In this document: positions 11,508-60,525 of the stretch, in pieces
Layout of the letters: every line of letters begins with the position of its first letter
Numbering within the stretch: position 1 is the first letter of the stretch
From: Strigamia acuminata
Lineage: Eukaryota; Arthropoda; Chilopoda; Geophilomorpha; Linotaeniidae
Assembly: GCA_949358305.1 (NCBI GenBank)
Contig: OX442314.1
Coordinates: 59,901,369 to 59,965,368, forward strand
Direction of reading: 5' to 3'
Length of the DNA: 64,000 bases
Made by a program: the position numbers and the translations under genes
The notes under the pieces: generated by a model
The model's input: the letters and a program-made list of their open reading frames with translations, nothing else
The model's database searches: none
What the model was told of the DNA's origin: nothing

Positions 11508-12547
11508 TGTCACGGTCCTGACTTCAGACAGTAATAATTTTCAAAATTTTAAGCGCATTTTGCGCCTTTCCCTTAATTTTCCCCTAATTTTATTGAGAAA
11601 TTGTTCTAATTCCTTTAAATTATTTTATTTTTCCCAAATCTAAATTTATTATTTTATTTTATATTATTTTCCTTATTTTTGATATTTATCTTTAATTTGG
11701 CCTGGTTTTAATCACCCCATCCAGACAATTCATGAGAATTCTGCAATAAGTTGATATAATCGCGCTCTAAATTTGCATATTTCACCCCTGATCGCCTGTT
11801 TTCTGCCCGGTTCCCATTGGGAATTGACTTGGCCTTTGACATGTGATCAGAGGTGACTTGTTCTGTCAAGACATTTTGACAGAGAGAATAATTTTCGCCT
11901 TCGACTAGTCAACATCTTCTGTCTCAACTGGAAGATTTCCAAGTGCGATTATGTTGCGTCTCAACGCATACGGTCATTATGCAGCCCGAATTCTCATGTT
12001 AGTCTAACTAACCACAACATTTATTATTTGCCCATTATTTGCGTACGAATTACTGGAAAAACGGCGTATTCGACGGTCTTAATTCGTCAATACATTTTAT
12101 GCCACGACTGTGACTTCCTCCTCAGCCTAGACATTTTGAACTTATACTCGTCTCAATTGCGTATTCATTTCATTATCGACGGTCCGACGACGTTGTCTGC
12201 GGTTTGGTACCTGTTTGCGCGTTCACCCAACGTTTGCGCGTGTTCAGGAGAAGAAACATACTCTTCGTAAGTACGCCTAGCATATGACGACATTTTCCCT
12301 AGTGAAGAGCGATATTTTGGTCTTAAAATTCGAGTATCAACGTTCGCCATTTTGTACGGCGCCCGAATTGAATCCTGCACCCATAAAATACAGATTTCAC
12401 GAATAGATGCTGTCTTAACCTAGCTACCACCCCCGGCAAAGTTTTAAGAGTTGCAGCGCCTGCGAACCTAAATTTTCTGGTTATTACAATCCCTGGAAAT
12501 TCTTAAATTTCCGAAACCATTGTTAAAAAGTCGACTACGACGTGACA
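11508..12547 (+). repeat. 5' LTR of element A
   Basis: 1040 bp, same length as the 3' LTR. Two differences were noticed: C versus T near 11524, and T versus C near 12408. The termini form a 7-bp inverted repeat TGTCACG/CGTGACA. The LTR would supply the promoter and polyadenylation signals, but no clear TATA box or AATAAA is visible. It contains seven GCGC tetramers, many for its composition. A donor-like GTAAGT is at 12267-12272 in its 3' third. The 80-codon ORF inside is chance. Confidence 0.95.
12267..12272 (+). promoter_or_regulatory. Candidate 5' splice donor in LTR A
   Basis: GTAAGT in the last third of the LTR, at a place comparable with GTAAGC (46626-46631) in LTR B; both are preceded by TC. 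It could be the leader donor for a spliced message carrying ORF3. This is inferred from consensus and position only. Confidence 0.3.
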
Positions 12548-12551
12548 ATCT

Positions 12552-12571: not shown

Positions 12572-12697
12572 AACTCGAAACGTGTTCTAAGAGAACACAA
12601 ACCACCATTTTCTTCAGTGAAGACTACGCAAGTATAGGTCGTTATATTTATTTAATTAATTACTTATTTTTGCCGGCACACATATTATTATTTCAAC

Positions 12698-14596
12698 ATG
12701 GCTTCACGCGACGCTTTGTCGCAATCCAGTGTTTCGGACGTAGAAGCCGAACAAGCGCATACTTTGCCACTTCCAGACTCACCAACACATGAGCCGGACC
12801 AGCAGCAGGATCTATTAGTACAACCAATATCCACAGACGTACCATTTTCCAATCCTTGGAGGACATACGCTCAAATGGAAGCGGATCAACTCCAACATGA
12901 ACGGGAAGCGGCTACGGCACGGGATCAATGGGAGGAAAATAGACGCCATTTGCAGGACTCACTCATGGAGAGAAGACAAATTGTGGACGGGATGCGAGCG
13001 GTTCGAGAAGACATTCAACGAGGACCGCCGCCTCCTTACCAACCTGCGTTTATGCAACCGGAACCACAACAACATCGAAGGAATCTACCTGCATTGACGA
13101 TGGAAGCATTGATGAGAGTATTACGAGAGGATAGAAGGGAGTTACAACACGAACTTCGCCAGGAGTTGCTCGAATCGATGAGGCAAATTAGGCGCGAGCT
13201 GAACGACAGAGTGGAGGAATTTATCCATTCGCACAACGAGCGAACTCAGCCTGAACCACCAGCACCAGAAGCAGGTTCAGGGGCCACACGTCGTGGTCGA
13301 GAGGGCGCTCGGGGAGCCGACTTTTCTTTTGGAGATACTGGACGTGCGTCGGGACCACGACGCACTGGCTCTTATTCTCCGAGACGACGCCAACAACATT
13401 CACAACAGGGAGACACGACTTCCAATGTTCCACGGGACCCACCACCGAATCCTGACCCGGATTCCGCTCAAGGAGGTAGTCAAGGCATACCACTCAGCGC
13501 CTCAAGACAACTGCCTCACACGAGATCTCAACTCTCGTTGGAGTCGGAAGATCAGCGTCAAGCCGCTCAGGTTGGAAGGTATAAACTTAAAGTTGAAAAA
13601 ATTCCATACTTTGATCCGGATGAGGCTACTTTCGACACAGTGGACCTGTTCCTGGGTAAGCTATATGCGCACATGTTTACCATGGGAGCACCGAAAGGAA
13701 TATATTTGAAAGTATACGTGGTTCTCGCGCTTCGAAATAGAGCGCAACGTTGGTGGATGGCTCTAACTCCAAAACCAAACAATTGGGAGGACTTTGAATT
13801 AGTTTTCAGGCAGGTATTTTCCATTAATTCAGCTTTAGCTAATGTTAAGTTGTCTCAGCGCAAACAAAAGCCAGGGGAATCAACTATGTCGTTCCTCAGC
13901 GAGATGATTCATTATTTAAATATTGCTGGATACAAGGACAAGGGCTTGCAGTGGGAACGAGTTCAGGGCATGATGCAAACTCAAGTCGTACAATTAATGC
14001 GCTCTTGGTGCATCAGGACGATCGACGACGCAGTCAAAATGGGCAACGATGTCGATAATCGCCTTCAGTTGGATTCGTTGCGGACTTTTGAGTACAAACA
14101 GTGCGGAGTTTCGGACCAGGAGATGCCTTTACCCGCAGGAGTGGGTCCTGCCACACGTACCAGAACAGAGGAGGAGAAGTTAAATCAACAATCTACTTCG
14201 TCCAGGTCTGGTCGTTTTTCAAGATTCAACAAAGTATTTACAGCATTGCTCGAGGATATGTCGGCGTGCGCGCTTGATCCAGAAGATCCCAACAGCGAGG
14301 AAACCAATAAGGACCCGCCAAAAGAGTCTGCATCAGCGGCAGCACAAAAGTCTGATGTCCACGCCATGACTGCGACTACTGCGCCAACACCTAGAACGGA
14401 TACACAGCACATATGTCCCAAGGACGTTGTCATTTTTCCAGCCGCTAAGGAAGCGCCTTCAGAGCCAAAGCTCCCGAAGAATGCTATGTTCAAATGGTTC
14501 ATGTCCGACAGGCAATCATGGAGGCCTGTGTGCCCCGTTTGTGGCAAGGAATGGAGTCGTCAGTCGGGAAACGCAAGCGGCCTGCTCAAAGCATGA
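12698..14596 (+). CDS. gag: Gag polyprotein, element A
   Basis: 632 residues, starting at the first ATG after the primer site. It is the structural protein of the particle. Residues 40-105 are charged and helical, probably a coiled coil, followed by a PPPPY motif at 110-114 that could act as a PPxY late domain. An Arg/Pro/Gln-rich stretch follows. Residues about 295-460 are a Retrotrans_gag-type capsid domain (QRWW at 350-353). There is no CCHC knuckle. Instead, His571-x-Cys573 and Cys612-Pro-Val-Cys615 could bind one zinc, and the same four residues are kept in element B. Length agrees with the B gag (635 codons). Pol overlaps the last 103 bases in the -1 frame, with a slippery site at 14566. 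Confidence 0.92.
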   Translation: MASRDALSQSSVSDVEAEQAHTLPLPDSPTHEPDQQQDLLVQPISTDVPFSNPWRTYAQMEADQLQHEREAATARDQWEENRRHLQDSLMERRQIVDGMRAVREDIQRGPPPPYQPAFMQPEPQQHRRNLPALTMEALMRVLREDRRELQHELRQELLESMRQIRRELNDRVEEFIHSHNERTQPEPPAPEAGSGATRRGREGARGADFSFGDTGRASGPRRTGSYSPRRRQQHSQQGDTTSNVPRDPPPNPDPDSAQGGSQGIPLSASRQLPHTRSQLSLESEDQRQAAQVGRYKLKVEKIPYFDPDEATFDTVDLFLGKLYAHMFTMGAPKGIYLKVYVVLALRNRAQRWWMALTPKPNNWEDFELVFRQVFSINSALANVKLSQRKQKPGESTMSFLSEMIHYLNIAGYKDKGLQWERVQGMMQTQVVQLMRSWCIRTIDDAVKMGNDVDNRLQLDSLRTFEYKQCGVSDQEMPLPAGVGPATRTRTEEEKLNQQSTSSRSGRFSRFNKVFTALLEDMSACALDPEDPNSEETNKDPPKESASAAAQKSDVHAMTATTAPTPRTDTQHICPKDVVIFPAAKEAPSEPKLPKNAMFKWFMSDRQSWRPVCPVCGKEWSRQSGNASGLLKA

Positions 14597-17500
14597 GTCC
14601 AGAGAGTGGGTCGGATACAAACATCAAGGACTCTACTGAGAAGAAGACTGAAGAATCACCAGACGTCGATAGAAGTACAACACCGTCTACTCCGACACCA
14701 GAGGCGCCATCTGCTGTTCGAGAAGACAACAACAAATTATTAACACCGTCTACTGACATTAAATTAACTACATCAATCAAATCAGATTCAAGTAAATCGA
14801 AATCAAAAACACCCGGTGTCGTAACACCACAACCAACAAAATCAGCGCAACTTTCGTCTGTGAAAGCCAAGGAAACCCCCAAAAAATCAACTTCGTTGAC
14901 AACGCAGAGTGAGACGTTGCAAACAAACTTCGTTCTTTTGTCGCCCGAGGAATTGCAAAAATCCGAAGAGCCAAGAATCGAAATTACGAAGACTGATCGC
15001 TTCAATAGAGAAGCACCATATATCAAAATAACATGGGCTAACGTGAGTTTTGTCGCACTTTTGGATTCAGGCGCTCAGACGTGTGTAATGTCAGAGTCAT
15101 TATTTAACAAACTTAAAGCCAATATGGGTTTGGAATTGCTCGAACTTCACGAAACAGTGCGTACAGCGGCCGATGACAAAATTCCAGTTAAGGGATCTGT
15201 TAAACTGTCGGTGCGCGCACCTTTGGCCGTTATTTCTTTTATTTGCTTAATTATACCCAAAACATCAGAGGACCTTCTGCTGGGAAGAGATTTCTGCAGA
15301 GCGGTTGGTCTGTGCACAGACTTTGAATTGTGCCAGTGGTATTTGAAGGGATCACAAGAGCGAAGACAATTCATGACTTTAGAACAAGCTAACAAGTCAG
15401 AATCTGTTCTTTTATTTCCCATCAAGAAACCCGATGATACAAAGGACAGCGCCAAGGATGTACCCAGGGTAGTAATTAACAACATTAATTGTATTCTTCT
15501 AGAACATCGACCTTTGTCGCAAGAGATTTTCGAATATCCAAATGACGATGCTCAACACCAAATCAAGAGGATTCGGAATCGTACACGAGATCAATGGTCA
15601 TTGATATGGTCACCAAAGAGGAAGGATTCCATTAAAAAATCAAGAAAATTCAATTCATCATTGTTTTCGACGCTTAGCCAACGCAGACGTGCAAGACGAC
15701 AGCGGAGACGCCTTTATGAATTGTCACCAACAATAAAACAACTTAACACACAAGGAAGACAGCTTTTGCGTCGTGTGGATGAAAATGCGCTCATGGCCAG
15801 AGTACACAATCATTCGACGATTTTGGAGCCGCCTCTGGATGTTAATGTACTACAATATCAACCAAGCAGTGATCCAACACAGCTGGATTGGATTTACGAC
15901 CAGCTGTGGTCATCATTGACGGTACCACAAATTCGTTTATTAATTCAGACTCTTCGACCAATTTCGAAAGTATTTCGTGAGGAGGTTGGATTATGTAACA
16001 ACACTCAGTTTGAAGTAAATTTAAAACCGGACTTTAGACCAATTCATGTGCCTGTAAGACCCGTTAACCCAGCAAAAAAGATGGTAATTGACACTTATTT
16101 GGACCAAAAACTAAAACAAGGCATTATTCGTCGATCAAAAAGTGATTGTGCGGTGGCGCCTGTTGTTGTTCCAAAGAAGACTGGAGATTGGCGTACAGCT
16201 ATGGATTTTAGGCCGATGAATGCTCAAACTTTACCCAATGTCTACCCATTACCCGACATCGATAATATATTTTCTTATTTAGGAGGATCAAATTGGTTTT
16301 CGATCATAGATGGACGAGAAGCTTTCCACCAGATTGGAGTGCGTCCAGGTGACGAGAGATTTCTCGCATTTATTACGCACAGAGGACTTTTCGAATATGT
16401 GAGAATGCCGTTTGGACCCATTAATGGCCCAGCAACTCTGCAGAGAGCCATGAACAAAACTTTGTCGAAATATCTTTACAAGTTCGTGTTCGTTTATCTC
16501 GATGACGTCATAATTTTCAGCAAGACTTTCGAGGAGCATGTGCAACATCTCAAAATAATTCTTCAAGCCTTGGATGAAGCGGGATTCACGATGAACGCCA
16601 ACAAGACGGAATTGTGCAGAACATCGCTCGAGGTTTTAGGACATATTGTAGAGGCTGGACACATTAAACCAAATCCAAATAAGGTGACGGCAATTCAATA
16701 TTTTCCGGCGCCTACCAACATCAAAGAATTACAAAGATTCAAAGGAATGATTGGTTATTATCAGTCATTTTTCCCAAATTATTCAAAAACATGCGAGGTG
16801 TTTCGCCCCTTACTCAAAAAAGATTCTGAGTGGAATTGGACGAATCAGCACCAAGAAGCATTTAATTCACTCAAGAGAGGATTGGCTGAACCAACTCTAC
16901 ATCGAAGATTCCCGGATTGGACCAAGCCATACATACTACAAACAGACGCCAGCTATTCAGGTTTGGGCGCTGCACTCATGCAATTAAATGATCAAGGTGA
17001 ACGAACACCAATCGCCTTTGCATCACGTGCATTGAATTCTGCTGAAAAGAATTACAGCGTCACCGAAATTGAGTGCTTGGCGGCGGTTTGGGCAGTCAAG
17101 AGATTTCGTGTATATCTTGAGATGATGAATTTTTATTTAGAAAGCGATCATTTGTCGTTAAAGTGGCTTTTCCAGCAGCGAGAACCAAAAGGACGCCTGG
17201 CACGATGGGTTCTGTCCCTCAGTGAGTACAAATTTACATTTTTTTACTGTTCAGGAGCACAGAATCGTGTTGCGGATGCCCTTAGCCGTGCGCCTGTGGA
17301 ACCATCGGAGCCATTGGATGCAGACGACTCGCCTCTCGTTGACGAAACATGCTACATCGCTTATTTTGACGACCCAAATGATTGGCCAGAATTACCAATA
17401 ATCAACATTATTGGAGTTGGATTGGCTGCGGCACAGCAACGGAATAGCGCAGCTGTGATGACAAGAGCGCAAAGACGACAGCAGCAAATTAAACCAAAAT

Positions 17501-17886
17501 TGGGTAGGCCAAAGGGTTCTAAAAATAAAAAGAGACCACCACCAAATTATCAGGTATTAACTCGAGCCAGAGCGCGTCAACAAACACAAGTTTCGGCGCC
17601 TCCTGGAGCTGTTGCACCATTACCACCTTTAATGTCGCCTCTGCCATCACCAAATGTGTCGACTGCATCATTTCCAACTCCTGATGTGTTGAGCCCACCT
17701 GCAGGACCATCTGGAGCTGTGCGACCGAATTTTGACGGATATGGAGGTCCAGATTCGGATTCGTCGGACGATTCTACAACTTATCAACCGGCATGGATGG
17801 GGCGTGCAGGATCGATTTATGCCACAGCAAGCACGTCAAGATCGATCACAATTTCAAAGAAATGCATCAAGACGACCAATTGCTGA
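14494..17886 (+). CDS. pol: Pol part 1: protease, RT, RNase H (element A)
   Basis: An open frame of 1130 codons, entered by -1 slippage at 14566, so the first codons before that are not expected in the product. A Ser/Thr/Lys-rich spacer is followed by an aspartic protease (DSGA with Asp191; LLGRDF as the second conserved block), a basic stretch (SQRRRARRQRRR), the reverse transcriptase (YLDD at 668-671), and an RNase H beginning at TDAS (Asp818). The enzymes cut the polyprotein, copy the RNA and remove it. After RNase H comes a linker with an AT-hook-like GRPKGSKNKK (1004-1013) and a Pro-rich stretch. The last 30 or so residues before the stop at 17886 have no counterpart in element B and probably follow a frame break near 17799-17835. 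Confidence 0.92.
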   Translation: MVHVRQAIMEACVPRLWQGMESSVGKRKRPAQSMSPESGSDTNIKDSTEKKTEESPDVDRSTTPSTPTPEAPSAVREDNNKLLTPSTDIKLTTSIKSDSSKSKSKTPGVVTPQPTKSAQLSSVKAKETPKKSTSLTTQSETLQTNFVLLSPEELQKSEEPRIEITKTDRFNREAPYIKITWANVSFVALLDSGAQTCVMSESLFNKLKANMGLELLELHETVRTAADDKIPVKGSVKLSVRAPLAVISFICLIIPKTSEDLLLGRDFCRAVGLCTDFELCQWYLKGSQERRQFMTLEQANKSESVLLFPIKKPDDTKDSAKDVPRVVINNINCILLEHRPLSQEIFEYPNDDAQHQIKRIRNRTRDQWSLIWSPKRKDSIKKSRKFNSSLFSTLSQRRRARRQRRRLYELSPTIKQLNTQGRQLLRRVDENALMARVHNHSTILEPPLDVNVLQYQPSSDPTQLDWIYDQLWSSLTVPQIRLLIQTLRPISKVFREEVGLCNNTQFEVNLKPDFRPIHVPVRPVNPAKKMVIDTYLDQKLKQGIIRRSKSDCAVAPVVVPKKTGDWRTAMDFRPMNAQTLPNVYPLPDIDNIFSYLGGSNWFSIIDGREAFHQIGVRPGDERFLAFITHRGLFEYVRMPFGPINGPATLQRAMNKTLSKYLYKFVFVYLDDVIIFSKTFEEHVQHLKIILQALDEAGFTMNANKTELCRTSLEVLGHIVEAGHIKPNPNKVTAIQYFPAPTNIKELQRFKGMIGYYQSFFPNYSKTCEVFRPLLKKDSEWNWTNQHQEAFNSLKRGLAEPTLHRRFPDWTKPYILQTDASYSGLGAALMQLNDQGERTPIAFASRALNSAEKNYSVTEIECLAAVWAVKRFRVYLEMMNFYLESDHLSLKWLFQQREPKGRLARWVLSLSEYKFTFFYCSGAQNRVADALSRAPVEPSEPLDADDSPLVDETCYIAYFDDPNDWPELPIINIIGVGLAAAQQRNSAAVMTRAQRRQQQIKPKLGRPKGSKNKKRPPPNYQVLTRARARQQTQVSAPPGAVAPLPPLMSPLPSPNVSTASFPTPDVLSPPAGPSGAVRPNFDGYGGPDSDSSDDSTTYQPAWMGRAGSIYATASTSRSITISKKCIKTTNC
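14566..14572 (+). promoter_or_regulatory. -1 frameshift site GGGAAAC (gag/pol, A)
   Basis: In the gag frame the bases read G GGA AAC, a classical X XXY YYZ heptamer, 22 bases before the gag stop and inside the gag/pol overlap. Slipping one base back reads GGG AAA and enters the open pol frame directly. Downstream I see only a weak hairpin (CTC/GAG around 14585-14597) and a possible 6-bp stem GAGTCC/GGACTC (14595-14600 with 14628-14633), so the stimulatory structure is uncertain. Element B has GGAAAAC at the equivalent codon. Confidence 0.8.
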
Positions 17887-19342
17887 TGAACAACAAGACG
17901 AAGAAGAAGACGAGGCCGAGCGACTCCATGAGGCGCCGCAAGACCACCAACTATTTCGTCTAATACCAACTATTAACGAAATAATTCGTCGACAACACAA
18001 AGACACGTGGAGCGCCGAATTAATCGAATATCTTGATCAAGGACAATTGCCCAACGACCAAGTGCAAGCAGCGCGTATCAGGTATCGTGCCGTAGATTTT
18101 GCTATGTACAAGGGAATGTTATGTCGTTATCCACCGATCGACATAAATAAAATTCGCCGTAGAAGACAAATCTATTTGCCCCTAATGTTACGCGAACAAT
18201 ATTTCAAAGCTCTGCATTACCCGCCGAGCTGCGGACATTTAGGAGTTGAAAAAACACTTCATCGACTCCAGGCCCGAGTTTATTGGCCAAAAATGAAGGA
18301 GGACGTTTTGCTTTGGATTCAAAAATGTGAACCATGTCAACGAGCTAAGCCGTTAAATCGCCTTCCATATGGACCAATGATCATGGCCAAACCACGACAT
18401 TTGTTTCACACAATTTACATCGATTATTATGGTAAAAAACCCCGATCGATTGGAGGACATTGTTACGCATTAGTAATTGTGGATGCCGCCAGTCGGTGGT
18501 TGGATGTAAGATTGACTGAGACATCTGACTGGAAAACAACAATCAAACAATTGCAAGGATTTATTCAGCGATGGGCATTTCCAAAAGTCATTATAAGTGA
18601 CAATGCGCCAGCTTTCCGTTCAATGGAGTTCCAGGCTGCATGTCAGAGTTTTGGCGCCATCAATCGCTACACGGCTGTTTATCATCCACAGGGGAACTTA
18701 GCCGAAAGATTAAACCAAGCATTGAAAAACTGCATTTTAGCTTATATTGAAGAGCATGTGCGCTGGGACGTTCACATTGGATATTTTGTGCTAGCAATCA
18801 ACTCAGCCTATCAAGCTTCGCTTCAATATTCTCCTTATCAAATGGTGACGGGACAGGAGGCGCGTTATCCAGGTGATTTCGATTCGGACACCGACGATGG
18901 ACAGCCGCTGCCGCCAGCACGAGCGCGAGAGACGCATGAATTGATGAGAAAATTGCGAAATGATGCCACTGCAAATTTACAAAAAGCTCAAATTAGACAT
19001 AAACGTTGGTTCGATCGAAAAAGAAGACCACACGATTTCAAACCAGGCGATTTTGTGTCTATTAAAAATCGACAATTGTCATCAGCGGACCGACAGTTTG
19101 CTGCAGGACTTCGACAGAGGACGGAAGGCGTTTACGTAATCCATAAATTAACTGGACCCAATACTGTCATTCTTATGGACAAGGATGGTCGTCGAATGCT
19201 GCCGTATAACGTCGTAGAATTGCGCCATTGGTTCAATAATGATGATGATTTAGACCAAACGGACGCAACAATGATCGAAAAACATGTTGCTGCGTTTACA
19301 TCGGAAATAGAAACCATCATCGCTTCATTTTCGATAAAATAA
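17732..19342 (+). CDS. pol: Pol part 2: integrase (element A)
   Basis: Integrase in the +1 frame relative to the RT frame. The first residues of this ORF are not part of the protein; similarity to element B begins near MPQQAR (about 17819). The N-terminal zinc domain is HHCC (His162, His169, Cys199, Cys202). The catalytic core has Asp231, Asp290 and Glu325, with 34 residues between the last two. A C-terminal GPY/F-like module follows (EGVYVIHKLTGPNTVIL); there is no chromodomain. It inserts the cDNA and makes 4-bp duplications, as seen at the element ends. In element B the same domains are fused in one frame to RT, so A has a one-base insertion, a recoding site, or a sequence error here. Confidence 0.9.
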   Translation: MTDMEVQIRIRRTILQLINRHGWGVQDRFMPQQARQDRSQFQRNASRRPIADEQQDEEEDEAERLHEAPQDHQLFRLIPTINEIIRRQHKDTWSAELIEYLDQGQLPNDQVQAARIRYRAVDFAMYKGMLCRYPPIDINKIRRRRQIYLPLMLREQYFKALHYPPSCGHLGVEKTLHRLQARVYWPKMKEDVLLWIQKCEPCQRAKPLNRLPYGPMIMAKPRHLFHTIYIDYYGKKPRSIGGHCYALVIVDAASRWLDVRLTETSDWKTTIKQLQGFIQRWAFPKVIISDNAPAFRSMEFQAACQSFGAINRYTAVYHPQGNLAERLNQALKNCILAYIEEHVRWDVHIGYFVLAINSAYQASLQYSPYQMVTGQEARYPGDFDSDTDDGQPLPPARARETHELMRKLRNDATANLQKAQIRHKRWFDRKRRPHDFKPGDFVSIKNRQLSSADRQFAAGLRQRTEGVYVIHKLTGPNTVILMDKDGRRMLPYNVVELRHWFNNDDDLDQTDATMIEKHVAAFTSEIETIIASFSIK

Positions 19343-19873
19343 CTTAATTTCTTTTCATTTTATAATTTTATTTCTTTCTTTACTTTACCCAACCTTCTTT
19401 CCTTCCTGTGTTTATAATTTTCCCTGCTTTAAACCAAATATTTACGGAGGATAGACGCTGAAAATAGTAAGTAAAGATTAGTTTAGGAATTTGAAATTCA
19501 TCAATTTAAAATGATGATACAAAAATTTACTAAGTCCAAACTCATGCTTCTTCGAAGTGCGTGATTAAATCTCGTTCACGCGAGAGGTCCGTGTCATATT
19601 TTATGACGAGGCGACCCCGTAGCGAGACCGCGTGTATTAAAGACATGTGAGGGCACGACTTAGCCACATTTTAATTTGCGTCTGAATAGTCGCGCCTCAA
19701 AAAACTTAACAATCACTTAAATTGGATAAATATTGTTAGAAATTGTGCGTCTATCACCCGTAAGTTCTTTCTATTTCACAACAATTCATTTTTAATTGAA
19801 TATTTTCGTTAAAATAACTTTTTCTTCCTGGAAAATTTCCATTTCTTTTAGTTTCACTTTACAATAATTTATT
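19343..19873 (+). other. Pol-ORF3 spacer with possible splice signals (A)
   Basis: 531 bp without coding capacity. A donor-like GTAAGT is at 19760-19765, and a pyrimidine-rich acceptor ending TTTTAG is at 19851, 22 bases before the ORF3 ATG. Element B has the same arrangement (GTAAGT at 55094, acceptor AG at 55179, ATG at 55190). The acceptor could receive a leader from the LTR to make an ORF3 message. A short hairpin CTCG...CGAG surrounds 19572-19586. Confidence 0.35.
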
Positions 19874-22657
19874 ATGGCGTCCTACGATTCAAAAGTAACA
19901 ATTACGATTCCAAAACCAACGCAAAAAGGTTATCCAAAATACCTGCCGATGCCACCAATTGAAGCGTCGGGCGAAGGACTGGTGCCACGCTTTCATCCGG
20001 ACCACCCAAACGACCAAAGTTTTCCAAACTATGAACTGTGCCCAGTTTGTAGCGGAACGGGATTTGAAATATACCAACTGCGGGCGCCACGAGAATGCCG
20101 AGCGTGTCGGGGCGGCGGTGACTTGCGTCGTTGCAAATTTCGGAAATGGATGCGCCTTATGTTCGCTGCAAACGCCATCGCTCGTTTTCGTCATGCGCAC
20201 GCGTCATATTTGGCACGCATAAAGCAATTGGCGAAGGAGAAGGGAATCCGGCCGTTGACTTGGAAATATCCAGAGGGAGCCTACATAATTGCCGGCGAGC
20301 AACCTGCCGAGCTTCCGGACCAGTTTGTGACGCCTGAAGGAAAGACCTACGATGTGGAATCGGGTATAGAACTGTGTTTGACGGCGCCCAATGTAATCGC
20401 GGATGCGAAAAAAGCGTATTCGGAGCCGGAAAGAGTTGCGGCCGACTTGCCATTTCAGCATTCAAATCTGCGTCCACGACATACGTACGAGGAGCGGAGC
20501 ACGCACCGCTTGAAGGAATACACGCAGAAAGTGACGAAAAGGATCGGAGCGGAGGCGAACCGGGACACTCACTTCGTGACGGGACGATCCGGACCAGCAT
20601 TGGACGTCTCTTCAGTCATCGTTGAGGAAAACGGAGCGGTTGGTGGAGCGCCTATTGCGTCGCCTGTCATCGAATCGACTAAAGAACTTTCGTTGCACGA
20701 CCAAGTGGCTAAAAAGGTAGTAAAAAATGAAGAAAATAGAAGAGAAAGAGAAAAAATTAGCAATATCAACACGATGTCGACCCCGATTATTAAAACGGAA
20801 TCGAGTGTGACGGCGGCGGAGGCGAAGTCAACCAACGTTACTACGGTGACCACTGCTGCGCCAATCATCATTCCTTACTTTTATGTCGTGAAGAACAAAT
20901 CGTCTTCGATTGAGACGTCCGAATCAAGCCAGGCTGCTCAATCTGTCGATACCACTACTGTGACCCAATCGAATGTGACGCCCAAGATGATGACTTCAGT
21001 TGCTGCGACATCAGTGCCGATTACATACTCCAAAATTGCAACTTCAAACACACAAATGGACACAATTGCTGATTTTAACAAAAAACTAATTAAAGCTGAT
21101 TTTTCCCCACAGGTTGACCGAGATATCAAAGCGTTGTTGAATTTTACACCATCTTCATCCATCGCGAATATCGCTGCCGAAATTGCGAGAGATGCGGAGG
21201 AGTGCGCAAAGATCCACGACATCAAGAAATTGGAAAGCAAGACCTCGAATCCAATTGCTAAAGCCATTTCAGCGGTCTCGAGCGGATCGACGTCGTCGGA
21301 GGGATGCGCATCTCTGAAGCCACGTTATCTCCAGGGATTCGACCGAAATGGATGTACGATGCGTTCAGACCGTATCTTCACCCAGATGTCCGAAATATTC
21401 CGGCGCCACGAGCTTGAGATACTGTACCCCATGGAGAACAGGGGTCAAGGACGAATCAACCTGAGATCGGAAGGATGGAGCGAACTTTTTAAAATGTCGA
21501 TTAATTTGGATTTCAACGTCAGCGCCTCGGACTTCAAGACGGTCGTCGGAACGATTTTCGGACGCCTCGGGAACATCGCGAAGGAAATTGAAGCGAAAAT
21601 GACAAAGGACTGTACCGGAGACGAACACGCGGTGCATCACCTCATTGTGCACGCCGTGCACTTTAATTTAAAAGAGATCATCACCCAAATGCATCAGAGT
21701 CGTCGCGACGCCGTTAAACGATTTCGTGAGGCCGACGCGCTCAGGGAGGCCCAGCGACTGGAGGACGAAAGAAATGCGCCCGCCAAACCACCACTGGATC
21801 CAGAATTGATCATGACGGAGGATGAAATTAAGAACTTTTCAGAAAAGATTCTCATCGAGTTGGCGCCTGAAAAATTGGTGCAACAATTTGAGGACGCAAT
21901 TGCCGAAAATCCGAAATTAGCAGATCCCCGAACCAAATATTCATTCCGATACGACCCCGTGATTGTGGCGGACACAGGAATACTCGCCTCGGAATTATCG
22001 TCGGATGTGGATTATTCAATGTCGGATGTCGAGTCGCTTCGCGAGTCAACGGGCGACGAAGAGAACCACAAAGCATTCCTGGCGGCGCAAGAACACAACA
22101 AAATTGAGGTAATTCAGGTCGACGAGCCTTTCAGACTTCCTGGAGTTGGACGGGGCGGTGCGAGAGGTGGACGTCGATCGCCATTGATGTCGAGGATGCC
22201 AAAAATGATTTTGACACCGCCAAAGGAAAAAGATGACGATCCAGGCGAAGTTGTCACACGTGAGAGTTTGCGCGAACCGGTCGAACCGAAGCCTAAGGAG
22301 AAGCGTCTCGTAGAGCCAACTTGCGCATTGGCAATCATGGAGGAGATTATCCCGATTGATGCTATTTTCTACTCATTGCCGTGGGAGCCTAAAATCGAAT
22401 TGGTCGTGGATTGGAGTATTCTGACGCGCCTTTTCGAAACGATCATCTTTTCGGACTTGCAGCTTGATCACAGCGCGGGCGAAAAATTGTTGTCCATCAT
22501 TAAACAATATTATGTTGGACATTTCCTTTACCGAGTGAACCGAATTAGCCGGAAGTGCTACGCGACTTCTAAACAACAGGTGAGAGTGATCCTCGTGAAA
22601 ACAGCGCTTAGACTGGTCTATTATGCGATGGACGGTCAGGGCGCATCTGCATTTTAA
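19874..22657 (+). CDS. ORF3 protein with DnaJ-like zinc motif (element A)
   Basis: 927 residues in the place of env, with its own ATG. Near the N-terminus is a pair of CxxCxGxG motifs (Cys56, Cys59, Gly61, Gly63 and Cys75, Cys78, Gly80, Gly82), the pattern of half a DnaJ/Hsp40 zinc domain, inside a block conserved in element B (HPND...SFPN, then the motif, then GDLRR). Residues about 200-480 are Ser/Thr/Val-rich and probably disordered. Residues about 520-650 and 830-920 are helical regions that align with B; the first ends in a charged coiled-coil stretch. No signal peptide or membrane segment is visible, so it is not an envelope protein. No J domain is present either. The function is unknown; nucleic-acid binding or a chaperone-like role in assembly are guesses. 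The intact frame in both elements implies selection. Confidence 0.85.
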   Translation: MASYDSKVTITIPKPTQKGYPKYLPMPPIEASGEGLVPRFHPDHPNDQSFPNYELCPVCSGTGFEIYQLRAPRECRACRGGGDLRRCKFRKWMRLMFAANAIARFRHAHASYLARIKQLAKEKGIRPLTWKYPEGAYIIAGEQPAELPDQFVTPEGKTYDVESGIELCLTAPNVIADAKKAYSEPERVAADLPFQHSNLRPRHTYEERSTHRLKEYTQKVTKRIGAEANRDTHFVTGRSGPALDVSSVIVEENGAVGGAPIASPVIESTKELSLHDQVAKKVVKNEENRREREKISNINTMSTPIIKTESSVTAAEAKSTNVTTVTTAAPIIIPYFYVVKNKSSSIETSESSQAAQSVDTTTVTQSNVTPKMMTSVAATSVPITYSKIATSNTQMDTIADFNKKLIKADFSPQVDRDIKALLNFTPSSSIANIAAEIARDAEECAKIHDIKKLESKTSNPIAKAISAVSSGSTSSEGCASLKPRYLQGFDRNGCTMRSDRIFTQMSEIFRRHELEILYPMENRGQGRINLRSEGWSELFKMSINLDFNVSASDFKTVVGTIFGRLGNIAKEIEAKMTKDCTGDEHAVHHLIVHAVHFNLKEIITQMHQSRRDAVKRFREADALREAQRLEDERNAPAKPPLDPELIMTEDEIKNFSEKILIELAPEKLVQQFEDAIAENPKLADPRTKYSFRYDPVIVADTGILASELSSDVDYSMSDVESLRESTGDEENHKAFLAAQEHNKIEVIQVDEPFRLPGVGRGGARGGRRSPLMSRMPKMILTPPKEKDDDPGEVVTRESLREPVEPKPKEKRLVEPTCALAIMEEIIPIDAIFYSLPWEPKIELVVDWSILTRLFETIIFSDLQLDHSAGEKLLSIIKQYYVGHFLYRVNRISRKCYATSKQQVRVILVKTALRLVYYAMDGQGASAF

Positions 22658-22820
22658 GAAAATAAAACTCCTGAAATTGACCTTCAAACCTACAAGTGAC
22701 TTTGCGCCTCCTAAAAACCCATATACGAACTGTTGTGTGTGCGGACTTTATTGTGATAATTGTGATACAAACGATAAGTGTTATAATTGTTTAAAATGTG
22801 ATTGTTATGCGCCTCGATGA
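22623..22820 (+). CDS. Small Cys-rich ORF downstream of ORF3 (A)
   Basis: A 65-codon frame overlapping the last 35 bases of ORF3 in another frame. Its second half, about 22723-22817, has nine Cys in 24 residues (CCVCGLYCDNC...CYNCLKCDC), which could be a compact metal-binding knuckle. No counterpart was found downstream of ORF3 in element B, and the surrounding sequence is AT-rich, so it may be chance. If real, it could be reached by frameshifting from ORF3 or by reinitiation. Confidence 0.25.
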   Translation: MRWTVRAHLHFKKIKLLKLTFKPTSDFAPPKNPYTNCCVCGLYCDNCDTNDKCYNCLKCDCYAPR

Positions 22821-23478
22821 AGATTTTTTACGTAAAGTTCCGTGAAAACTCAAACGCCTACGAAAGAAGATAATATTCGTTTGCGAACTTTTTATTTTTT
22901 GATATTTATACTTTACTAATCATTTTTGCTAATCATTTTTATTAACCATTTGTGATCATTGAAATTTTACTATCTTATTATTGTGATAATTGACGCCAAA
23001 TCAGCGCCTAATTAATATTTTTATTTGCTAATAATTTACATTTTTATAGAGATTTTGCCACTCATAGGCATTGTTAATTAATCTTAAATTATTTTATTTC
23101 CTAGTCATAACAGAGAATACCATTGTTAATTTCAAGTGTTATCAAATAATTTAACAAATTTTATTATTTTGTTTAGAATTTAGTCGTAGTTAGCGCCTAA
23201 ACGTCTATTGATTCTGTTAATTTTTATTCAAACGATTTTTTACAATATTCCTCTCCTAGACCCATTTGTTTGTGTTTGTTTGTTCTTGTCTGTAATTACG
23301 CCGAGTTGTGCGCCTGTTGCGTCTGTCCAAATAAATCCCTACCTGTGTTATGTGTTTATTATGAGATTAATGTTATTGATTCATTATTTTTATTTATTTA
23401 TATGTTCAAATTTTTATCAATCATGTTTGTTAACTTCATTTAGATGTTGATTATATAAAAACCATATAATAAACATCT
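22821..23478 (+). other. 3' non-coding region of element A
   Basis: A very AT-rich stretch between ORF3 and the polypurine tract, dotted with GCGCC tetramers or pentamers (for example in GCGCCTCG, GCGCCTAATT, GCGCCTAAAC, GCGCCTGTT). The hydrophobic ORF at 23208-23450 reflects T-rich composition. ATAATAAA near 23468 precedes the tract, and element B has the same word at its equivalent place. Confidence 0.5.
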
Positions 23479-23491
23479 AGGTGGGGGGGAA
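23479..23491 (+). promoter_or_regulatory. Polypurine tract of element A
   Basis: AGGTGGGGGGGAA (one T) directly before the 3' LTR. Expected to resist RNase H and prime plus-strand DNA synthesis. Confidence 0.85.
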
Positions 23492-24531
23492 TGTCACGGT
23501 CCTGACTTTAGACAGTAATAATTTTCAAAATTTTAAGCGCATTTTGCGCCTTTCCCTTAATTTTCCCCTAATTTTATTGAGAAATTGTTCTAATTCCTTT
23601 AAATTATTTTATTTTTCCCAAATCTAAATTTATTATTTTATTTTATATTATTTTCCTTATTTTTGATATTTATCTTTAATTTGGCCTGGTTTTAATCACC
23701 CCATCCAGACAATTCATGAGAATTCTGCAATAAGTTGATATAATCGCGCTCTAAATTTGCATATTTCACCCCTGATCGCCTGTTTTCTGCCCGGTTCCCA
23801 TTGGGAATTGACTTGGCCTTTGACATGTGATCAGAGGTGACTTGTTCTGTCAAGACATTTTGACAGAGAGAATAATTTTCGCCTTCGACTAGTCAACATC
23901 TTCTGTCTCAACTGGAAGATTTCCAAGTGCGATTATGTTGCGTCTCAACGCATACGGTCATTATGCAGCCCGAATTCTCATGTTAGTCTAACTAACCACA
24001 ACATTTATTATTTGCCCATTATTTGCGTACGAATTACTGGAAAAACGGCGTATTCGACGGTCTTAATTCGTCAATACATTTTATGCCACGACTGTGACTT
24101 CCTCCTCAGCCTAGACATTTTGAACTTATACTCGTCTCAATTGCGTATTCATTTCATTATCGACGGTCCGACGACGTTGTCTGCGGTTTGGTACCTGTTT
24201 GCGCGTTCACCCAACGTTTGCGCGTGTTCAGGAGAAGAAACATACTCTTCGTAAGTACGCCTAGCATATGACGACATTTTCCCTAGTGAAGAGCGATATT
24301 TTGGTCTTAAAATTCGAGTATCAACGTTCGCCATTTTGTACGGCGCCCGAATTGAATCCTGCACCCATAAAATACAGATTTCACGAATAGACGCTGTCTT
24401 AACCTAGCTACCACCCCCGGCAAAGTTTTAAGAGTTGCAGCGCCTGCGAACCTAAATTTTCTGGTTATTACAATCCCTGGAAATTCTTAAATTTCCGAAA
24501 CCATTGTTAAAAAGTCGACTACGACGTGACA
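23492..24531 (+). repeat. 3' LTR of element A
   Basis: 1040 bp, identical to the 5' LTR by eye apart from two substitutions. Followed by AAGT, the target duplication. Confidence 0.95.
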
Positions 24532-46144: not shown

Positions 46145-46818
46145 TGTCACGGGCACGTCTACCCGCCTATTTTTAATTTAGAATAACCCGATCTTATTTC
46201 TTATAATATTTTCTTGTTCTTCTCACTTGTGATGATTCATCTCACTTACTCATCTTCATTTAATGAATGCGCAATCTGGATGATGCGCATATCATTATTC
46301 TTAACAATCGAACTCCTATTTTCACCTTTCCACCCCCTTCTTTAATTGATCTGACCAGTCACATGACTGAGTTTTCTTCTTTCCAATCATCCTAAGTTTA
46401 ATCACTTCTTCTTATGCTCTCTACTGGATAAGACCATTCTCCTTTAGTAACATTTAGATTTAGTCCTCTATTATTTGCGCCTTCAACAAGCGCCACTACA
46501 TCTAACCCTATTGCGCTATTTTCTAAGCCGCCATCTTTTATATTATCACTGCCCGATGATATCCCCTTTCCACTTTAGGTTTATATCATCGTGCTTTCAT
46601 TCTTTTACGCCTACAAACACCCGTCGTAAGCAAGGAACTGTCCAATATAAATTATGTTAGTCAAACGCGAGTATTAGGTTTCCTGAGTTTCTGGATGTCC
46701 ACATTTGAAGGAAACAAGGTTTAGGGAAATCTACGAACTTTGCCCATTACTATTGCGCGAATTAGTTTTTGCGCGATATTGTTAGGAATTAATTACACCA
46801 ACGGAATTAATCGTGACA
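46145..46818 (+). repeat. 5' LTR of element B
   Basis: 674 bp, TGTCACGG...TCGTGACA. Seven GCGC tetramers. Donor-like GTAAGC at 46626-46631. No clear TATA box or AATAAA. The 61-codon ORF inside is chance. Confidence 0.95.
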
Positions 46819-46821
46819 ACA

Positions 46822-46919: not shown

Positions 46920-48827
46920 ATGTCGAATGAGTTGGGAAACGGTGAGGAAAACCCCACTGTACGAGACCCCTTTGATTTGGACGAGCTGGCTTCGGCTCTC
47001 GTCTGGCAGCGTTATGAGCGTTTAAGGCGAGCACGAGCGGAACAAAGTGAGTTATTGATAACCATTGCGAATTCAATGCCGCAAACTTTTCAAGACAACG
47101 TGTCGGCTCCGATACCTGGCGTAAACATTTCTGCGCCAACGACAGTTGCCACGTCAACACCAGCGTAGCAGCTCGTGCCTCCAGCTTTCTTCACTCCTGG
47201 CACGTCAGGAATATCAATGAATCCGACGATTTTACATTCCGAAGCTTTATTGATGTGTGATATTCGTAATCAGTTTTTCGTTCAGGCACAGGGATTACTC
47301 AAAGAAATGCGAAGCATTTACCAACAAGGCACCAGCCCTCCACATCCAACGGCACCCCCGTCGGAGGATGGTGGATCCTCGCATGGATCCATAAGGGTAA
47401 AAGGCAATTCGGCACCATCAGGAAATGAACTTTCCACGGAAATTCCTCATTGTGGAGGAGCAAGCCACCAACAACAATTTGCGCCCACCACCATAAATGC
47501 GCAACCGACGGTTACAACAACGACACCACCGGTAATGACGCATGCCACTACTTTCACTCAATGTCCGTCCGTGGCATCACAAATTATGGATTCAACAAAA
47601 GCCAATCAGCAGGTGATGAATTCTTTATTATGTGCCAAAATTAACAACACAGGGCACCCATCCGGAGTAAGGGCCCAATTGTCTCTACCATCAATACGAG
47701 TAAGACGAGAAGACTCTTCCCGAAGATATAACAATTATAAGGAAAAACTCCCTCATTTCGACCCTGAGAAGGCCACACTTGACTCTGTTAATTTGTTTCT
47801 GGCGCATTTATTTGCGCATATGTATTCCACCCGCATGCCCGAGGAAGAGTATTTAAAAGTAAATATAATTCAAGCAACCCGCAACAAGGCGCAACGTTGG
47901 TGGCTCGCATTAAAACCAAAACCCAAAACATGGATTGAGTTCGAGGCATTGTTTTGTAAGGCCTTCTCCATGAATTCAGCGGCGGCCAATGTGAAAATTG
48001 CAAATCGAAAGCAACGCAGTGGAGAGTCCACTATGACTTTTCTCAGCGAAATAATATATTATTTAGAAATTGCCGGCTACACAGACCCTGGATTACAATG
48101 GGAGAAGGCCCAGAACATGCTACTGTCTGACGTCGTCCAACTTTTAAGAACAATGCATGTCAAAACAATTGACGAAGCAATTCAACTGGGAAACGACGTG
48201 GACAACCGACTACTACTCGATTCTCACCGCAAAACTGAGTATAGAAACTTGGGTCTCGTTGATCAGTTTGCACCTTTTTCAGAAGCAAACCCTTCATCCC
48301 CCACCGTGTTGAAATCCGTGGATAGATCCAGAGGTGAAGCTGAAACTAAAACCTCCACGTCCAGCGACGCCGGACGTTTTACGCGCTATCGTAAACAACA
48401 ACTTATGTTAGAACTAGCTGCGTTGGAAGCCCGACCCGAGCAACCTCCGCCGCCACAGGAACCAAATTCAAGTAGCAGCAGCGAGTCGGAATCGGAAGTG
48501 GAAACCAAAAAGAGTTCTGTCGCCGGAGCCGCGCAAAAGGTGAACATTTCAGTAAATTCAACCACAATTGCGCCCCCTGCAGATCTCCCCAAGGACCATG
48601 TCTGTTCTACCTCCGTGGTTACATTTGCGCCATCACCAAAACCTCCAACAAGTGTCAAGTTTCCCGAAAAAGGTGCAGCTTGGCGCAAAACAAAAAAGGA
48701 TTGGTGGTACATGATTGATAACACTACTTGGCGCCCTATTTGTCCTGTGTGCTACAAAGTTTTCGAGAGGCAGGAAAACTCCGACGGCCTGAAGTTCCCA
48801 CGACCGGCGGAGCCAGGCCGCAAGTAA
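46920..48827 (+). CDS. gag: Gag polyprotein with internal TAG (element B)
   Basis: The frame from the ATG at 46920 runs to 48827, 635 codons as against 632 in element A, with a single in-frame TAG at codon 83 (47166-47168). After the TAG the frame continues at once with CAG CTC; the next Met is at 47175. The capsid-like domain (YFDP/HFDP...QRWWLALKPKP...GNDVDNRLLLDS) aligns well with A. The C-terminus keeps His560-x-Cys562 and Cys608-Pro-Val-Cys611 in place of a CCHC knuckle. The PPxY motif of A is not present. The TAG may be a recent nonsense mutation or a read-through stop. Pol overlaps the last 100 bases in the -1 frame. Confidence 0.88.
47166..47168 (+). other. In-frame TAG within gag (element B)
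   Basis: TAG followed by CAG, in the same frame as the gag sequence on either side. Consistent with a C-to-T change of a CAG codon. The +1 to +3 codon is CAR, as in some leaky UAG contexts, but the next codon (CTC) does not fit the full rule. Confidence 0.8.
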
Positions 48828-51800
48828 ATCAACCGGTCTCCACAAGCGTAAAACGTGTGGAATCAACAAGACGTGCTCCACCCGACATCACCCTTGACGA
48901 GAACATTTCCGATAGGATTATTCCCACAACAACGACTCCTTCTATCACTCCTAGTGAGTCTAAACCAGGAATTAGTGTTGTATCATCCACACCTCCATCT
49001 TCATCACCGATAGTGACGAATCAAAGGAAAACTTCAGTTTTGCAACCTGTAGCTTTCCAACTAGCATCCGGACCTGTTTCAAAGTCGACAGCCTTGCAAG
49101 CTGCGACTGCACAGAAACAAATCACCAAGAATGTGAGTAAAAACTTTAAAATTCCCATTATTAAGACTACTCCCAGTGTCAATTCAGCGGAAGCGCCCAA
49201 GGAAGTGATCGCTCCAATGAAGGTATCTTTTGTTATGTTGACATCGGAAGAACTTAAAGAATCTCAAGAACCGATTATTGAGATAACACGCGCCGATAGA
49301 TTGCGCCGAGAAGCTCCATGCGTAAAAATATCTTGGGCAAATGTGTCATTTACCGCGCTTTTAGATTCAGGTGCTCAAACTTGTATCATGAGCGAGGAAT
49401 TATTTCAACAACTTCATGAAAAGATGGGACTCGAATTTATTAATTTACATGAACAGGTACAGGTCGCCTCCGGACATGTAGTAACTGCTTCAAAGTCAGT
49501 GACGCTTGCGTTGCGAGCGCCATTAGGAGTGGTGAAATTCGTGTGTTTGGTGTTGCCTGATGCCAAAAATGACTTGATCCTCGGACGAGACTTTAACCAA
49601 GCAGTCGGAGCAACCATCGATCATGGAAGGAGCCAGTGGAGCTTGGCTGGCTCAGACGAAATTCGTAAATTCGTGACCTACGAAGACGCCAAAAAATCTG
49701 AGTCCATTCTCGTGTTCCCAATGGCACCAGAAGGATTGGATAAATCAACAACTCCACTCGCTAAAATAAGTGAGATTGTTCCAAATAAAATACTTAAAAA
49801 ACCTGCGCCATCCAGCGACATTAACTGTGTTCTGCTGTTACACCAACCATTGAGAAATGAGGTTTTTGAGTATCCAAACGACGACTCACAAAGACAGGTA
49901 AAGACAATTAGGCATCGCAGTCGGACAACGTGGTCGAACATCTGGTCACCAAAACGAAAGAAAACTTCGAGAACTTCGAGTAAAGTGAAAAAGACAATCT
50001 CTCGTAAGTTAACTTTAAGCCAATTTCGTCGATTGCGCCGCCTTCGTCATAAATTGAATGTTATTCGTCCCATCGCCAAACAATTGATTGCGCAACGAGC
50101 CAAGGGCATTAACGACCAAAAGAAGTTAATTAACTACTCCAGAACAACTGCGCAACCTACTAATGGTGAGAACGACTCAAATTCAAATGTTTACAACATC
50201 AACTTTTTGCAGTACCGGCCCAGTGAGGATCCGACCGATCTCGATTGGATTTACCACCAACTATGGAACCATTTGACCGTTACGCAAATCAAACTACTAA
50301 TTGAAACTTTACAGCCAATTTCACAGATTTTCCGCGAGGAAATCGGTTTATGTAATAATACGGAATACGAAGTTAATCTACCGGATTTTCGTCCGATCCA
50401 TGTTCCAGTACGACCCGTAAACCCTGCGAAAAAGGCAATTATCGACAAATACATCGACAAGAAACTTCAACAAGGTATAATTCGCCGTTCACAAAGTGAT
50501 TGTGCCGTTGCCCCAGTGGTCGTGCCCAAGAAGACCGGGGAATGGAGGACAGCAATGGACTTCAGACCCATTAATGCGCAAACAATTCCGGATGTGTATC
50601 CACTTCCGGACATAGACAATATATTTGCGTATTTAGGCGGTGCACATTGGTTCTCGATAATCGACGGGCGCGAGGCCTTTCACCAAATTGGAGTGCGCAA
50701 GGGAGATGAGCGATTCTTGGCCTTCATAACACACCGAGGACTATTTGAATACGTTCGTATGCCTTTCGGCCCCATCAACGGTCCGGCAACACTCCAAAGA
50801 GCGATGAATAAGACCTTGGCCAAATATTTATATAAATTTGTATTTGTATACATTGATGATGTTATTATTTTTAGCAAAACATTTGAGGAGCATGTTCAAC
50901 ATTTGCGCCTCGTCTTGGAAGAATTATTTGATGCTGGTTTCACCATGAACGCCAACAAAACCGAGCTCTGTAAACAGCGCCTCGAAGTTCTGGGCCACAT
51001 CGTGGAATCCGGTCAAATTTCTCCAAATCCGAAAAAAGTGTCAGCTATTCAAAATTATCCTGCGCCAACAAATTTGCGCGAGTTACAACGTTTCAAAGGT
51101 ATGGTGGGTTATTATCAATCTTTTATTGCGAACTTTTCCAAGACAAGTGAGGTATTCCGACCATTACTCAAAAAAGATGCTGTTTGGCATTGGAATGAGG
51201 CGCAACAAGAAGCTTTTGATTATCTCAAAGATCAAATAGCGACTCCAACGCTAAAGAGACGTTTTCCCAGCTGGAAGAAGCCATTCATCCTCCAAACAGA
51301 TGCAAGCTACTCCGGTTTGGGGTCAGCTTTAATGCAACTAAATGACGCAGGAGAAAGAATTCCCATAGCTTTCGCTTCCCGTGCGCTTAACAGTGCTGAA
51401 AAAAACTATAATGTGACTGAAATTGAATGCCTAGCAGCCGTGTGGGCAGTGAAACGTTTCCGCGCTTATCTAGAAATGATGCCATTTTATTTGGAGAGTG
51501 ATCATCGTTCTTTAAAGTGGTTGTTTCAACAAAGAGAACCAACTGGCCGACTTGCTCGTTGGGTACTCTCATTAAGCGAATACAAATTCACTTTCCTGCA
51601 CTGCTCAGGATGCAAGAATCGAGTGGCGGACGCGTTAAGCAGAGCACCAGTCGATCCACCCGAAGATGACGAGGAAGACGACAGCCCACTCGTCGACGAA
51701 GCCTGCTACACCGCATATTTTGATGACTGTAGTCAGTGGCCAGCATTATCCATAATTACTGAGTTGCCAAAAGACATTAATAGACAATTTAAGAAAATGT

Positions 51801-59851: not shown

Positions 59852-60525
59852 TGTCACGGGCACGTCTACCCGCCTATTTTTAATTTAGAATAACCCGATC
59901 TTATTTCTTATAATATTTTCTTGTTCTTCTCACTTGTGATGATTCATCTCACTTACTCATCTTCATTTAATGAATGCGCAATCTGGATGATGCGCATATC
60001 ATTATTCTTAACAATCGAACTCCTATTTTCACCTTTCCACCCCCTTCTTTAATTGATCTGACCAGTCACATGACTGAGTTTTCTTCTTTCCAATCATCCT
60101 AAGTTTAATCACTTCTTCTTATGCTCTCTACTGGATAAGACCATTCTCCTTTAGTAACATTTAGATTTAGTCCTCTATTATTTGCGCCTTCAACAAGCGC
60201 CACTACATCTAACCCTATTGCGCTATTTTCTAAGCCGCCATCTTTTATATTATCACTGCCCGATGATATCCCCTTTCCACTTTAGGTTTATATCATCGTG
60301 CTTTCATTCTTTTACGCCTACAAACACCCGTCGTAAGCAAGGAACTGTCCAATATAAATTATGTTAGTCAAACGCGAGTATTAGGTTTCCTGAGTTTCTG
60401 GATGTCCACATTTGAAGGAAACAAGGTTTAGGGAAATCTACGAACTTTGCCCATTACTATTGCGCGAATTAGTTTTTGCGCGATATTGTTAGGAATTAAT
60501 TACACCAACGGAATTAATCGTGACA
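59852..60525 (+). repeat. 3' LTR of element B
   Basis: 674 bp, no difference from the 5' LTR noticed; followed by CCAT. Confidence 0.95.

Follow-up and report, generated by a model that had tools for sequence, protein, structure and literature searches.

An env-position reading frame with a DnaJ-type cysteine motif pair in two Ty3/gypsy elements of Strigamia acuminata

The third open reading frame of elements A and B

The window analysed here is a stretch of 64,000 nucleotides from Strigamia acuminata (Chilopoda; assembly GCA_949358305.1, contig OX442314.1, positions 59,901,369 to 59,965,368 of the forward strand), and all coordinates below count from its first letter. It contains two Ty3/gypsy long terminal repeat (LTR) retrotransposons, A and B, each of which carries a third open reading frame (ORF3) downstream of gag and pol, in the position of env. 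A first-pass annotation of the window had reported this frame as intact and 927-931 codons long in both elements, and both copies do run from an ATG to a stop codon. The elements and the features of ORF3 are as follows.

11508-24531, plus strand: element A, Ty3/gypsy LTR element
19874..22657, plus strand: A ORF3, 927 amino acids (aa), ATG to stop, env position, after pol
19931..20272, plus strand: A ORF3 N-terminal zinc block, residues 20-133, from A/B conservation
20039..20062, plus strand: A motif 1, CPVCSGTG, residues 56-63
20096..20119, plus strand: A motif 2, CRACRGGG, residues 75-82
21335..21778, plus strand: A ORF3 second conserved block, residues 488-635, largely helical in a model of low confidence
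22148..22174, plus strand: Gly/Arg-rich GRGGARGGR, residues 759-767, only in A and absent from B
22304..22654, plus strand: A ORF3 C-terminal conserved block, residues 811-927, score 60 versus a shuffle maximum of 43
46145-60525, plus strand: element B, Ty3/gypsy LTR element
55190..57985, plus strand: B ORF3, 931 aa, ATG to stop, env position, after pol
55241..55663, plus strand: B ORF3 N-terminal zinc block, residues 18-158, from A/B conservation
55349..55372, plus strand: B motif 1, CPVCSGYG, residues 54-61
55406..55429, plus strand: B motif 2, CRACDGRG, residues 73-80
56990..57469, plus strand: B ORF3 second conserved block, residues 601-760, from A/B conservation
57620..57982, plus strand: B ORF3 C-terminal conserved block, residues 811-931, from A/B conservation

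The CxxCxGxG motif occurs exactly twice in each ORF3, the two copies being 11 residues apart, and a pattern scan of the whole proteins revealed no further CxxC in A or B. When each protein was shuffled 20,000 times with its composition preserved, 9 (A) and 7 (B) of the shuffled sequences had one or more of these motifs, and none had two. The number and spacing of the motifs thus agree with the first-pass annotation, but its statement that the protein opens with them does not: they begin at residue 54-56, not at the protein start. In B, two extra cysteines (residues 7 and 9, C-R-C, 55208-55216) lie upstream of the zinc block; these are missing in A.

The motif pair had also been placed inside a conserved block, and this was borne out. 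The motif-bearing N-terminal block (N block) of A and B shares 35% identity over 141 columns (BLASTP, E 5e-26), and its local alignment score of 238 is far above the highest value, 52, reached when the B block was shuffled 500 times. With both motifs masked the score is still 144 (shuffle maximum 44), so the conservation of this block is not a matter of its cysteines alone. The pattern common to A and B reads S-F-P-N-[YF]-E-[LI]-C-P-V-C-S-G ... C-R-A-C-x-G-x-G-D-L-R-R ... R-x-W-M-R. Net charge in and after the motifs is +6 for A residues 51-100, +2 for B residues 51-100, and +8 for B residues 101-150. A second shared block (about A residues 481-640) scored 125 against a shuffle maximum of 49, and a second BLAST segment of ORF3 shows 25% identity over 163 columns. 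The middle of the protein is Ser/Thr-rich, poorly conserved and marginal in score: it reached 82, where 200 shuffles had a mean of 50 (s.d. 7.6) and a maximum of 83. ORF3 therefore has three conserved blocks with poorly conserved linkers between them. In codon alignments, the N block is 42% identical (120 aligned codons), and the other three segments measured are 21-22% identical.

Estimates of dN/dS between A and B were unusable: dS calculated by NG86 is saturated in three of the four segments and 2.7 in the fourth, and YN00 returned no value. Differences at codon positions 1, 2, and 3 of the N block number 55, 47, and 80 of 120 codons, a third-position excess with p 0.008. The same excess has p 0.005 in the poorly conserved middle, and p 0.08 and 0.11 in the other two segments. 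Since it occurs in the N block and the middle alike, it supports coding selection on ORF3 without singling out the zinc block. Searches with seven A/B proteins (tblastn) identified relatives of ORF3 within the window only in A and B.

Similarity of the zinc block to DnaJ and other proteins

A ORF3 has a single Pfam match, to the DnaJ central domain PF00684 (E 0.044, 14.5 bits; cut-off 32.7). B ORF3 matches PF00684 (E 0.06, 14.1 bits) and DUF5351 (E 0.074), both below the curated cut-offs. A 46-column A/B profile searched against the PDB placed 1exk, the DnaJ cysteine-rich domain, first of eight rows with E 0.0017 (best single stretch 0.062); the other seven rows, six of sequestosome-1 and one of a DnaJ homologue, have E values of 0.56 or worse. 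The 1exk match weakens to E 0.079 with a longer N-block profile, and full-length A ORF3 alone has no PDB match up to E 1. With 1exk and PF00684 as the best matches, the first-pass description of half a DnaJ-type zinc domain, in an env-position frame of two elements, holds. As a sequence, the N block may fairly be called "half a DnaJ-type zinc module", while its homology to DnaJ, given the short length, is plausible but not proven. The four cysteines of the motif pair suggest that the block binds zinc.

Type I DnaJ proteins combine CxxCxGxG motifs, as in PF00684 and 1exk, with a J domain and C-terminal substrate domains. The absence of a J domain, which had been noted before, is confirmed by Pfam searches up to E 1 of A and B ORF3, and the DnaJ C-terminal substrate-binding domain is likewise without a match in these searches. 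Thus, three features of a type I DnaJ/Hsp40 protein were not found in ORF3, namely a J domain, four CxxCxGxG motifs, and the C-terminal domains. Both ORF3s do have two CxxCxGxG motifs, i.e. four cysteines, as is characteristic of the anti-TRAP type, in which the spacing between the motifs is shorter than in ORF3.

Among NCBIfam models, the N blocks match TIGR02642 (A only, 6.5e-4), DnaJ models (best 0.0057 and 0.014), and, weakly, anti-TRAP (RtpA; E 0.43 and 0.17), all below cut-off. In PHROGs, weak matches were obtained to families of unknown function, phrog_9961 (1.4e-4, A) and phrog_8897 (0.01, B), and still weaker ones to Q-like antitermination proteins (0.18-0.58).

PDB profile searches with the second and third blocks of ORF3 revealed no convincing relative. 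One block profile gave five PDB rows, the best of them MS2 coat protein (0.026), with no stretch passing. The other gave eight rows, the top three being engineered repeat proteins (3.7e-9 to 0.0016), again with no stretch passing; these were taken as an artefact, and four Hfq RNA-binding proteins in the same search (E 0.17-0.71) were too weak to be considered.

Scans of viral contigs yielded 88 stretches with the ORF3 N block and 24 with the reverse transcriptase (RT), none of them a relative. The scan of these contigs with the 46-residue zinc core yielded 41 stretches at 11 loci. All 11 are open frames with a single CPVCSGTG, without a CxxCxGxG pair, and with a glycine-less CxxC slightly upstream; since their similarity is limited to about 11-20 residues, they were treated as motif coincidences. 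The same zinc core scanned against genome contigs gave 60 stretches and no relatives.

The two elements and the rest of the window

The terminal repeats, gag, and pol of A and B are located as follows.

11508..12547, plus strand: A 5' LTR, 1040 bp, 2 mismatches to the 3' LTR, flanking 4-bp repeat AAGT
12698..14596, plus strand: A gag, 632 aa, without a CCHC knuckle; PF03732 E 4.8e-5, 23.9 bits, cut-off 24.1
14494..17886, plus strand: A pol part 1, with protease, RT, and ribonuclease H (RNase H) (Pfam)
17732..19342, plus strand: A pol part 2, integrase in another frame (PF17921, PF00665)
23492..24531, plus strand: A 3' LTR, with a purine-rich GGTGGGGGGGAA tract just before it
46145..46818, plus strand: B 5' LTR, 674 bp, identical to the 3' LTR, flanking 4-bp repeat CCAT
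47169..48827, plus strand: B gag open stretch, separated from the ATG at 46920 by an in-frame TAG (47166-47168)
48728..54448, plus strand: B pol as a single ORF with protease, RT, RNase H, and integrase (Pfam)
59852..60525, plus strand: B 3' LTR, identical to the 5' LTR

Both LTR pairs start with TGTCACGG and finish with CGTGACA. The order of Pfam domains is protease, RT, RNase H, integrase in A and B, and the best PDB match of the RT-RNase H profile is Ty3 pol (E 5.5e-83). On this domain order and with Ty3 as the best solved relative, both are assigned to Ty3/gypsy elements (Metaviridae), in agreement with their LTRs and 4-bp target duplications. The near-identical LTRs indicate that both insertions are recent.

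Identity between A and B is 82% in RT-RNase H, 63-66% in two long BLAST segments of pol and 46% in a third (48 columns), and 43% over 380 columns of gag. Together with the identities of ORF3, these values place A and B in different families. As ORF3 can be aligned in three blocks between families whose gag identity is 43%, it predates the split of A and B.

The pol gene of A consists of two overlapping frames where that of B is one continuous ORF. Given this split and the TAG in B gag, neither copy is fully intact on a simple reading; recoding may account for either. The pol frame is -1 relative to gag in both elements. A slippery-heptamer shape, GGGAAAC, is present at 14566-14572 in the gag frame within the gag/pol overlap of A, and no heptamer of that shape was found in the overlap of B. 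The only Pfam match of B gag is the Arc capsid domain (E 0.16). A pattern scan revealed no CCHC in gag or pol of A and B, and neither gag matches zf-CCHC in Pfam. A W-R-P-[VI]-C-P-V-C stretch is conserved near the C terminus of both gags (14519-14542; 48729-48752). Profile comparison of ORF3 with gag gave a probability of 0.2% and hence no hint that ORF3 arose by duplication of gag.

Shortly after the pol stop codon of B lies a homopolymer of 46 A, possibly a scar of the acquisition of the downstream part, or a simple expansion. In the 1.9-kb interval between ORF3 and the 3' LTR of B, an imperfect tandem repeat occupies 58110-58461 (about 72% alike, step about 126 nt); the RNA fold of this region is not unusual (z -1.36).

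Elsewhere in the window, 20-bp satellite arrays were identified at 44883-45119 and 45953-46138, the second of which stops a few bases before the insertion of B (46145). An 11-bp satellite array of CATTAGAATAA-like units (26158-26531) lies downstream of A. A tandem array at 32878-33568 has a step of about 133 bp and also matches its own reverse complement (about 82%). The minus strand carries a copia-type pol fragment (40347-42116; PF07727, E 3.2e-61), a gag-like ORF of 354 aa (4268-5332) with a CCHC knuckle slightly below the Pfam cut-off, and a weak rve_3 integrase match (1930-2247; E 1.2e-4, below cut-off).

Possible functions of ORF3

Any explanation of ORF3 should accommodate an open frame in the env position, a conserved motif pair together with its surroundings, three conserved blocks, and the lack of envelope features. 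Our tentative preference, with a probability of roughly 0.4, is for an accessory protein, not an envelope, that has been kept by vertical descent and most likely handles the RNA of its own element in a manner similar to CERV. The RNA-binding factor offered as one alternative in the first-pass annotation is close to this reading.

CERV is the env-position protein of Cer1, a Ty3/gypsy element of C. elegans. Its mRNA is spliced, the protein is predicted to fold into three domains with flexible linkers, and nuclear export of genomic RNA requires it, with an essential part for its cysteine loop and the arginine therein (PMC10309623). The C193/C195/C200 triple mutant and R194A lose the concentration of CERV at nuclear genomic RNA as well as Gag expression or RNA export (PMC10309623). 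Like ORF3, CERV occupies the env position of a Ty3/gypsy element without being an envelope, and consists of several structured parts with flexible linkers, comparable to the cysteine block, the two further blocks, and the poorly conserved Ser/Thr-rich middle of ORF3 (PMC10309623). It has a possible C4-type cysteine finger with invariant cysteines and is very divergent between species (PMC10309623). Unlike ORF3, CERV has 517 aa encoded by five exons that include gag-frame sequence, and its cysteines (C193/C195/C200/C269) do not form CxxCxGxG motifs; the Gag of Cer1 has three CCHC fingers, none of which was found in the gags of A or B (PMC10309623). The two layouts are alike in kind, and the likeness is meant as an analogy rather than as a claim of homology.

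By this analogy, ORF3 would be translated from a subgenomic spliced mRNA. The N-terminal four-cysteine zinc module, with the basic Arg/Trp stretch that follows it, would dock on genomic RNA or on an RNA-bound partner, and the other two conserved blocks would multimerise and recruit host factors. The resulting complex would allow unspliced genomic RNA to be exported from the nucleus and delivered to Gag. CERV is the model for all of these steps, from splicing and the contact with RNA to the nuclear site, multimerisation, and export. In favour of RNA handling, both the env position and the cysteine block have been kept in two diverged elements (43% identity in gag, 35% in the ORF3 N block), and this block is the best-conserved part of ORF3. 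The precedent of CERV, the basic stretch in and after the motifs, and anti-TRAP, whose two-motif module acts on an RNA-binding protein, also speak for it. So does, in a scoring of splice sites with generic weight matrices and no shuffle control, one acceptor-like site of A, at 19852, 22 nt upstream of the ORF3 ATG with no ATG between.

A number of observations count against an RNA-handling ORF3. CERV is compared here through its published description, and its cysteine spacing is different. Pfam recognised no RNA-binding domain in ORF3. Nuclear export patterns, with overlapping matches counted, number 13 in A and 19 in B (shuffle means 14.7 and 12.5), and nuclear localisation patterns number 1 and 0 (1.2 and 0.4 in shuffles), which is no useful signal. 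In the same splice-site scoring, the best donor-like site of A lies inside the LTR. The best acceptor-like sites of B (55024, 54850) precede other ATGs, so that splicing to B ORF3 is not clear. Folding of two 421-nt stretches that follow ORF3 gave z values of -1.36 and -0.27, i.e. no unusual RNA structure. AlphaFold models were unusable: with a mean pLDDT of 34.6 (full-length A ORF3) and 44.5 (zinc block), they are too poor for fold comparison.

A Gag without a CCHC knuckle could also obtain its nucleocapsid function in trans, if ORF3 within the particle provided RNA binding or annealing that depends on zinc. The absence of CCHC from gag and pol of A and B, the lack of a zf-CCHC match for either gag, and the conserved four-cysteine block of ORF3 are consistent with this, but ORF3, with about 930 aa, would be an unusually large nucleocapsid and the W-R-P-[VI]-C-P-V-C stretch at the end of gag could do part of the job. 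Many Ty3/gypsy Gags, moreover, function without a zinc knuckle, and we regard this option as unlikely. A similarly low likelihood is given to a counter-defence role, in which ORF3 blocks silencing of the element by host small RNAs or chromatin. The poorly conserved linkers and middle are as expected from fast evolution, and helicase domains acquired by insect retrotransposons are stated in an opinion paper to weakly suppress RNA silencing (PMC6338049); direct sequence evidence, however, is absent, and Pfam recognised no such domain in ORF3. The chaperone or assembly function that was proposed at first, i.e. a half DnaJ zinc module that holds unfolded Gag or RT, is improbable too. It is the reading suggested by DnaJ as the best Pfam and PDB similarity and by the DnaJ models among the weak NCBIfam matches, and a J domain is also absent from the chaperone ZnJ2 (PMC5818400). 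However, ZnJ2 and DnaJ type I have a four-motif zinc domain while ORF3 has two motifs, and a Cys-to-Ser form of ZnJ2 still assisted refolding of RNase A (PMC5818400), so the motif pair is no predictor of chaperone activity. In Bacillus, anti-TRAP (AT/RtpA) has two CxxCxGxG motifs like ORF3; its target is TRAP, an RNA-binding protein, and its oligomers form only with zinc. Unlike ORF3, it is a bacterial protein of 53 residues that forms trimers and dodecamers (PMC2896485). As the same two-motif module occurs in anti-TRAP, and ORF3 has neither a J domain nor the DnaJ C-terminal domain, the pair does not mean "chaperone" and this part of the first-pass annotation is not supported.

Two further explanations are very unlikely. 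An envelope or cell-to-cell transfer protein would fit the position downstream of pol, and insect MDG1-group elements have a short, transmembrane, fusogen-like sORF2 (PMC11952523). Yet the maximum 19-residue hydropathy of ORF3 is only 1.5 (A) and 1.09 (B), with -0.06 and -0.26 near the N terminus. The signal peptide and transmembrane segment of a retroviral Env thus have no obvious candidate in this hydropathy scan, as had been noted in the initial description; R-x-[KR]-R sites are absent from both ORF3s, and each has four N-glycosylation-like sites in about 930 aa. There is as little to be said for an ORF that is open by chance, or for a host transcript captured recently and at random, to which the 46-A run between pol and ORF3 in B (54467-54512) might point. 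Between pol and ORF3 of element A, no A run is longer than 6, and recent random capture is refuted by the three ORF3 blocks shared across the A and B families; an old capture is possible.

Non-envelope ORFs in the env position have been described before, both for CERV (PMC10309623) and for rotifer elements (PMC5408684), and the term "undescribed system" in the first-pass annotation was therefore too strong. LTR-element ORFs in this position are many, with functions mostly unknown (PMC10309623). The ORF3s of bdelloid rotifer LTR elements encode GDSL, DEDDy, coiled-coil, or transmembrane proteins; like the frame described here, they are non-envelope ORFs kept within LTR-retrotransposon lineages, and they are typically expressed from spliced messages (PMC5408684). 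They differ in being enzymatic, coiled-coil, or transmembrane, and neither "zinc" nor "DnaJ" occurs in the main text of that paper (PMC5408684). In plant Retand elements, ORFs that encode a TRP28 domain lie in antisense orientation, and a number of plant elements have additional ORFs (PMC11963269, PMC7264820). Among the matches listed, judged by title and the start of the abstract, the open-licence literature contained no paper on a retroelement ORF with CxxCxGxG; the combination of this motif with retrotransposons led, by title, only to plant ORANGE proteins.

It is conceivable, but rather doubtful, that in a Ty3/gypsy lineage a half-DnaJ zinc module has come to serve as the docking head of a large protein of the element's own, which handles RNA or assembles capsids and is independent of Env and CERV; such a class of retroelement protein was not found in the searched literature. 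Among the matches listed in that literature, CERV is the only worked-out case of RNA export. A second, differently built zinc protein in the env position would help to show if the control of genomic RNA is a common job of such ORFs.

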